From contig SSEV01000016.1 in NCBI GenBank assembly GCA_008015095.1, positions 1 to 57,247 on the forward strand: a DNA stretch of 57,247 bases, given 5' to 3'. The stretch's first letter is position 1, and each line of letters opens with the position of its first letter. The notes under the pieces were generated by a model, which was not told the origin of the DNA, searched no databases, and saw nothing but the letters and a program-made list of their open reading frames with translations. This document shows positions 6,572-7,789 of the stretch, one piece after another. The stretch comes from Lysobacteraceae bacterium. GTDB taxonomy: Bacteria; Pseudomonadota; Gammaproteobacteria; Xanthomonadales; Xanthomonadaceae. The translations under genes were made by a program, and so were the position numbers.

Positions 6572-7789
6572 TTGATCAGGAATTCCAGAATGCGGCCGAT
6601 CTTCTCGAAAGTACGTCTCGTCACCGCCCCGCTCGCGCTTGCGACGCTCTTGACCTTCGGGTCCGCCATGGCGGCAGACATGGATCCCGCGTTGAAATCC
6701 GCGATGCAGCGCGACCTCGGCTTATCCGAGCTGCAGCTCGGGCAGTACATCAAGGCTGAACGGCTCGCCCAGCAGCAGGAAAAAGCGCTGCAGCGCCAAC
6801 TGGGCCGCGACTATGCCGGCAGTTGGATCGAGCGCCAAGCCGACGGTTCGTTCAAGTTTGTCGTGGCGACCACCTCTGCCAGGCCGCTCAACGCCGCAGG
6901 CGTCGAATCGCGTCAAGCGCGCCACAGCCTCGCCTCGCTGGATGGCGCCAAAGGGCGATTGGACACGCTGCTGGCTCAGGGCGCCAAGGTGCCGAAAGGC
7001 GTCTACGGCTGGTACGTGGATCTGCCGACCAACAGCGTAGTCGTGAGCGTCGGCGCGGGGAGCGAGAAGACGGCCATCGACTTCGTCGCCGTCAGCGGCA
7101 TCGCCGCCGACACCGTGCGTTTCGAGATCGCCGATGAACAACCGAGTCTGCGCATGGATGTCCTCGGCGGCTACGGCATCCTGCGCAATCCGGGCGACGG
7201 CTATCTCTACGCCTGTTCGGTCGGCTTCTCGGTCACCCAGAACGGCAATCCCGGCTTCGCCACCGCCGGCCATTGCGGCACCGCAGGCGAAGTCACCTAC
7301 TACGAACCCTCGCAGTGGACGCTGGGCGTGAGGCTCGGCACCTACGCCGCCTCGAACTTCCCGGCCCCCGGCCAGACCGGCCCGGATCGCGCCTGGGTCC
7401 GGCTGGACGCCGCCCACACACCGCGTCCGACCGTCGAGGGCTACACCAGCGCCGACGTCACCGTACGCGGCAGCACCGAAGCCGCCGTCGGCGCGGCGGT
7501 CTGCCGTTCCGGCCGCACCACGCAATGGCGCTGCGGCGCGATCGAAGCCAAGAACCAGACTGTCAACTATTCCACCGGCGAGACCGTTCTGAACCTGACT
7601 CGCACCACCGCCTGTTCCGAAGGCGGCGACTCGGGCGGTTCGTTCATCACTTCGGCCGGCTAGGCCCAGGGCGTGCTGTCCGGCGGAAGCGGCAGTTGCA
7701 AGGGCGGCGGCCGGCGCAGCCGCAGTTATTTCCAGCCGATCAATCCGCTCCTGCAGGCCTATAACCTGACGTTGGTGACCAGCCCCTGA
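6572..7789 (+). pseudogene. Alpha-lytic-protease-like S1 serine protease with in-frame TAG at 7661-7663
   Basis: Propeptide plus protease domain with TAGHCG and [16 protein letters not shown] ends at TAG, but the same frame continues 41 codons as AQGVLSGGSGSCKGGGRRSRSYFQPINPLLQAYNLTLVTSP then TGA at 7787-7789. Confidence 0.85.

Follow-up and report, generated by a model that had tools for sequence, protein, structure and literature searches.

The closest described system for the gene considered here is the alpha-lytic protease family (MEROPS S1E; 5mrr/5mrt, 1p01, 2pfe), whose prodomains are tight inhibitors as well as foldases. The gene, located in a window of 57,247 nucleotides (the whole stretch of DNA that was analysed), has in common with this family a signal peptide, the PF02983 prodomain and a chymotrypsin-like domain with the ATAGHC, GPDRAWV and GDSGGS motifs. 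It differs from the family by a TAG that interrupts the frame 41 codons ahead of the natural end and by an insertion (containing APGQTGP), the latter being common to its own orthologue group. Belinky et al. 2021 (PMC7918605) argue that a stop within the frame is a poor pseudogene marker when dN/dS is low and nothing else has decayed. The window gene resembles the in-frame-stop genes under purifying selection of that study in its single stop, the absence of other decay and its low dN/dS; unlike those, its stop is found in one genome only, without conservation hinting at a lasting function. The features of the locus are as follows.

5021 to 6412, reverse strand: Mur ligase family gene (Mpl-like), intact, upstream, adjoining the protease in several genera (Pfam, synteny)
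6590 to 7660, forward strand: open part of the protease gene, with signal peptide, alpha-lytic prodomain and protease domain, 357 codons (Pfam and PDB matches)
7661 to 7663, forward strand: in-frame TAG replacing a Gln codon that is CAG or CAA in every aligned orthologue (orthologue alignment)
7664 to 7789, forward strand: conserved C-terminal 41 codons and original TGA, with the LSGG substrate-binding strand, the sixth Cys and the C-terminal strands (orthologues, solved chains)
8115 to 8693, reverse strand: adenylate kinase gene, intact, downstream (Pfam, synteny)

The TAG at 7661-7663 closes the frame of the protease gene on the forward strand, and the same frame stays open beyond it for 41 codons (AQGVLSGG...LVTSP) until TGA at 7787-7789, exactly as an earlier note on this DNA had read it. 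The likeliest start of the protease is ATG 6590, where the signal peptide begins and from which the orthologues align, TTG 6572 being a mechanical ORF start only. A frameshift in place of a nonsense change is ruled out, as one frame aligns on either side of the TAG. In a blind codon-usage scan of the whole window in six frames, three stops were flanked on both sides by coding-like sequence in the same frame; that 7661 is one of them indicates that the interrupted frame is more than chance. Another, at 30941 on the reverse strand, is simply the place where two complete ORFs meet. The scan also drew attention to the TGA at 37045-37047 on the forward strand, with coding-like sequence over 774 codons before and 58 codons after it, which may simply be where one gene ends and overlaps the ORF that follows. 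No other lesion was found in the window when the neighbouring genes and the coding scan were checked. Apparent multiple stops in some alignments of a second genome (G005) to the window, which might have pointed to an error-prone region, were traced in the two cases inspected to shadow frames upstream of the real starts.

The prodomain matches Pro_Al_protease (PF02983) in Pfam with E 4.2e-14, above the cut-off, and aligns with the alpha-lytic prodomain chain 2pro in the PDB. PDB matches with E 1e-33 to 3e-40 comprise chains of alpha-lytic protease, Lysobacter lytic endopeptidase and Thermobifida protease, the best solved relatives being the lytic endopeptidases 5mrt and 5mrr, alpha-lytic protease (1p01) and 2pfe, an alkaline serine protease. 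Alignment to the solved chains places the catalytic His, Asp and Ser in ATAGHC, DRAWV and GDSGG, respectively. When an X is placed at the stop, the match reaches the very end of the solved chains, and in each of the five alignments shown the residue opposite the stop is Gln. One of the six cysteines of the mature domain (in SGSC) lies 3′ of the stop. The LSGG that follows the stop presumably serves as the substrate-binding strand along the S1 pocket, as in the established structure of alpha-lytic protease (chymotrypsin positions about 213-216). Thus the C-terminal strands, the SGG substrate-binding strand and the sixth Cys are all present in the DNA beyond the TAG and outside the predicted product, which agrees with the earlier claim that the catalytic Ser is kept while the C-terminal strands are lost. 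The gene is a member of S1E by descent, its predicted product is an incomplete member, and from the loss of these elements a protein ending at SAG should be inactive.

Leaving aside the window's own hit, searches of genome collections gave 53 family matches at E 1e-110 or better (57-81% identity); 41 loci, 32 of them distinct, were read through the stop site. Each of the 32 distinct orthologues has Gln at this site, encoded by CAG or, in three, by CAA. Orthologues at 60-86% identity align straight past the stop to the same C-terminus, which excludes the possibility that they naturally end at SAG, the observation that the earlier note would have taken as refutation. Gln likewise occupies this position in the three intact paralogues of the window genome. 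As the two nearest orthologues, from a Thermomonas sp. metagenome-assembled genome (L005, 86%) and from the same genus (L017/L015, 82%), carry CAG, the stop is, by comparison of these sequences, one C-to-T change (CAG to TAG) private to the window genome; the change at a conserved Gln had been proposed in the earlier note by comparison with alpha-lytic protease. The order mpl - protease - adk - pfk is kept in L005, L007, L013, L015, L018, L094 and L107, and therefore the locus is the same one, inherited vertically. In four genus-mates the mpl-adk gap measures only about 150-880 bases, and the orthologue is absent from most genus-mates, so the protease is dispensable in the genus. A plasmid record offering an independent copy of the gene was looked for and none was found, and the literature searched yielded no report on alpha-lytic protease pseudogenes in Lysobacter.

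Selection was examined with a purpose-written codon model of GY94 type (F3x4, seven taxa). The dN/dS was 0.062 on the window branch and 0.094 on the rest of the tree, and neutral evolution along the window branch was rejected (2dlnL 41.7). Private codon changes amount to 48 synonymous and 11 non-synonymous over the whole gene, and to five synonymous and none non-synonymous 3′ of the stop; for this short stretch alone neutrality was rejected weakly (2dlnL 4.8). Besides the stop, two window-private changes fall at otherwise invariant residues, which is no excess over the 0 to 4 of intact orthologues. Hence the relaxed selection or further lesions of nonsense pseudogenes are not seen here, there being no second lesion. 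The low dN/dS and the lack of private non-synonymous change after the stop imply an origin of the stop close to the branch tip, an error, or readthrough. If the gene is a pseudogene, it is a very young one, in which relaxed selection is not yet expected.

A parallel case is provided by a distant orthologue in another, nearly complete genome (G029; L021 1474-2673). Like the window gene, it belongs to the same family, carries an independent Gln-to-TAG change and has a low branch dN/dS (0.062). It differs in that its TAG lies in the prodomain (GLSGP*LAQYL, locus 1606-1608) and is joined by a 15-base (5-codon) deletion just before the catalytic His. L112, which stands nearest to L021 among the sequences of the set, has neither lesion. 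Taken together with the window stop, these lesions indicate that the protease has been inactivated recently more than once; it is dispensable and repeatedly lost. Two Gln-to-TAG changes alone are not striking, because C-to-T is a common transition and Gln is mostly encoded by CAG at such sites.

We consider that the TAG probably reflects a fresh and ordinary nonsense mutation in the gene of a secreted protease that the bacteria can do without. A single and very recent C-to-T change would have converted the conserved CAG shortly past the catalytic Ser, and ordinary RF1 termination at the TAG would give a preproprotein of 357 residues. Such a product would keep the catalytic His, Asp and Ser and lack the final tenth of the enzyme, 41 residues comprising the S1/substrate-binding strand, the partner of the last disulphide and the closing C-terminal strands, so that it would be expected neither to fold nor to work. 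The resulting loss-of-function allele would be fixed or polymorphic in the sampled population. With three intact paralogues in the genome and no orthologue in most genus-mates, its loss would be tolerable. Among the three alternatives of the earlier note, recent nonsense mutation is thus best supported, and amber readthrough has found no positive support. For annotation, the entry should name a secreted alpha-lytic-type protease gene interrupted by a nonsense codon, of which intact paralogues and orthologues exist; it would also illustrate cleanly how a dispensable exoenzyme is lost, at a stage when decay has not yet set in.

The absence of decay past the stop is equally expected from a sequencing or assembly error or from efficient readthrough. 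The window genome (G000) is a draft of 3.5 Mb in 254 contigs, 75% complete and probably metagenome-assembled, and a consensus or assembly error in such a fragmented and incomplete draft, the real gene being intact, is possible though clearly short of probable. A single substitution is the simplest error, and but for the stop the gene would pass as fully functional, with nothing but synonymous private change beyond it. Base errors are not frequent in this genome, however, as in-frame stops are absent from 42 ABC, 22 TonB-receptor and 37 response-regulator matches and the window holds no other lesion. These roughly 100 stop-free domain matches and the intact neighbours give no sign of a code change either. 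It is improbable that the TAG is read through, by a suppressor tRNA or leaky termination, into a full-length active protease, perhaps at low level, which if true would be a notable natural amber suppression in Lysobacteraceae. The strong purifying selection on the lineage and the caution of Belinky et al. (PMC7918605) on stops without decay speak for it, but low dN/dS on a long branch is equally expected from a young stop. Contrary to what programmed readthrough or a code change would lead one to expect, the stop is conserved in no relative and in-frame stops recur in none of the domain matches; nothing positive indicates that it is functional. The RF1 gene prfA is present and intact, and the search for suppressor tRNAs suggested by the earlier note found no CUA anticodon among the 31 tRNA matches of the 75% complete genome, which include Gln UUG and CUG. 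The RNA past the stop is no more stably folded than shuffled sequences (z -0.99).

Two readings grant the stop a role of its own. That these bacteria partly decode UAG as Gln, so that the family tolerates ambers and the TAG limits the dose of a potentially self-damaging secreted protease, could be argued from the two independent Gln-to-TAG changes on branches both under purifying selection; we hold it to be very improbable. A new function of the truncated protein, e.g., a prodomain inhibiting or chaperoning the paralogous proteases, is hardly credible. The prodomain is indeed intact, but the stop lies inside the protease domain and not after the prodomain, and nothing points to selection for a stop that is unique and young.

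Two suppressor-tRNA candidates were rejected. A tRNA match cut off at the end of contig C112 reads UCC (Gly), and a weak match on contig C53, missed by ARAGORN, has an anticodon loop of the UUC type. The latter is one of two adjacent low-scoring tRNA genes at C53:17815-17951 of G000 (L079), the other being Asn GUU; the pair is perhaps phage-borne. At 7892-7984 of the window, in the intergenic space between the protease and adk, a dispersed repeat contains two hairpins, one being GCGCACTTCCTGTGCG with a T-run after it and the other GAGTCCGGcacatgcCCGGACTC. The same genome has about 20 more copies, complete or partial, at 77-94% identity, and genus-mates have others; a typical copy starts CAGGCTGTTGAAAAACGCACTTCCTGTGCG. 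No Rfam family fits the repeat, which looks like a REP/MITE-type element.
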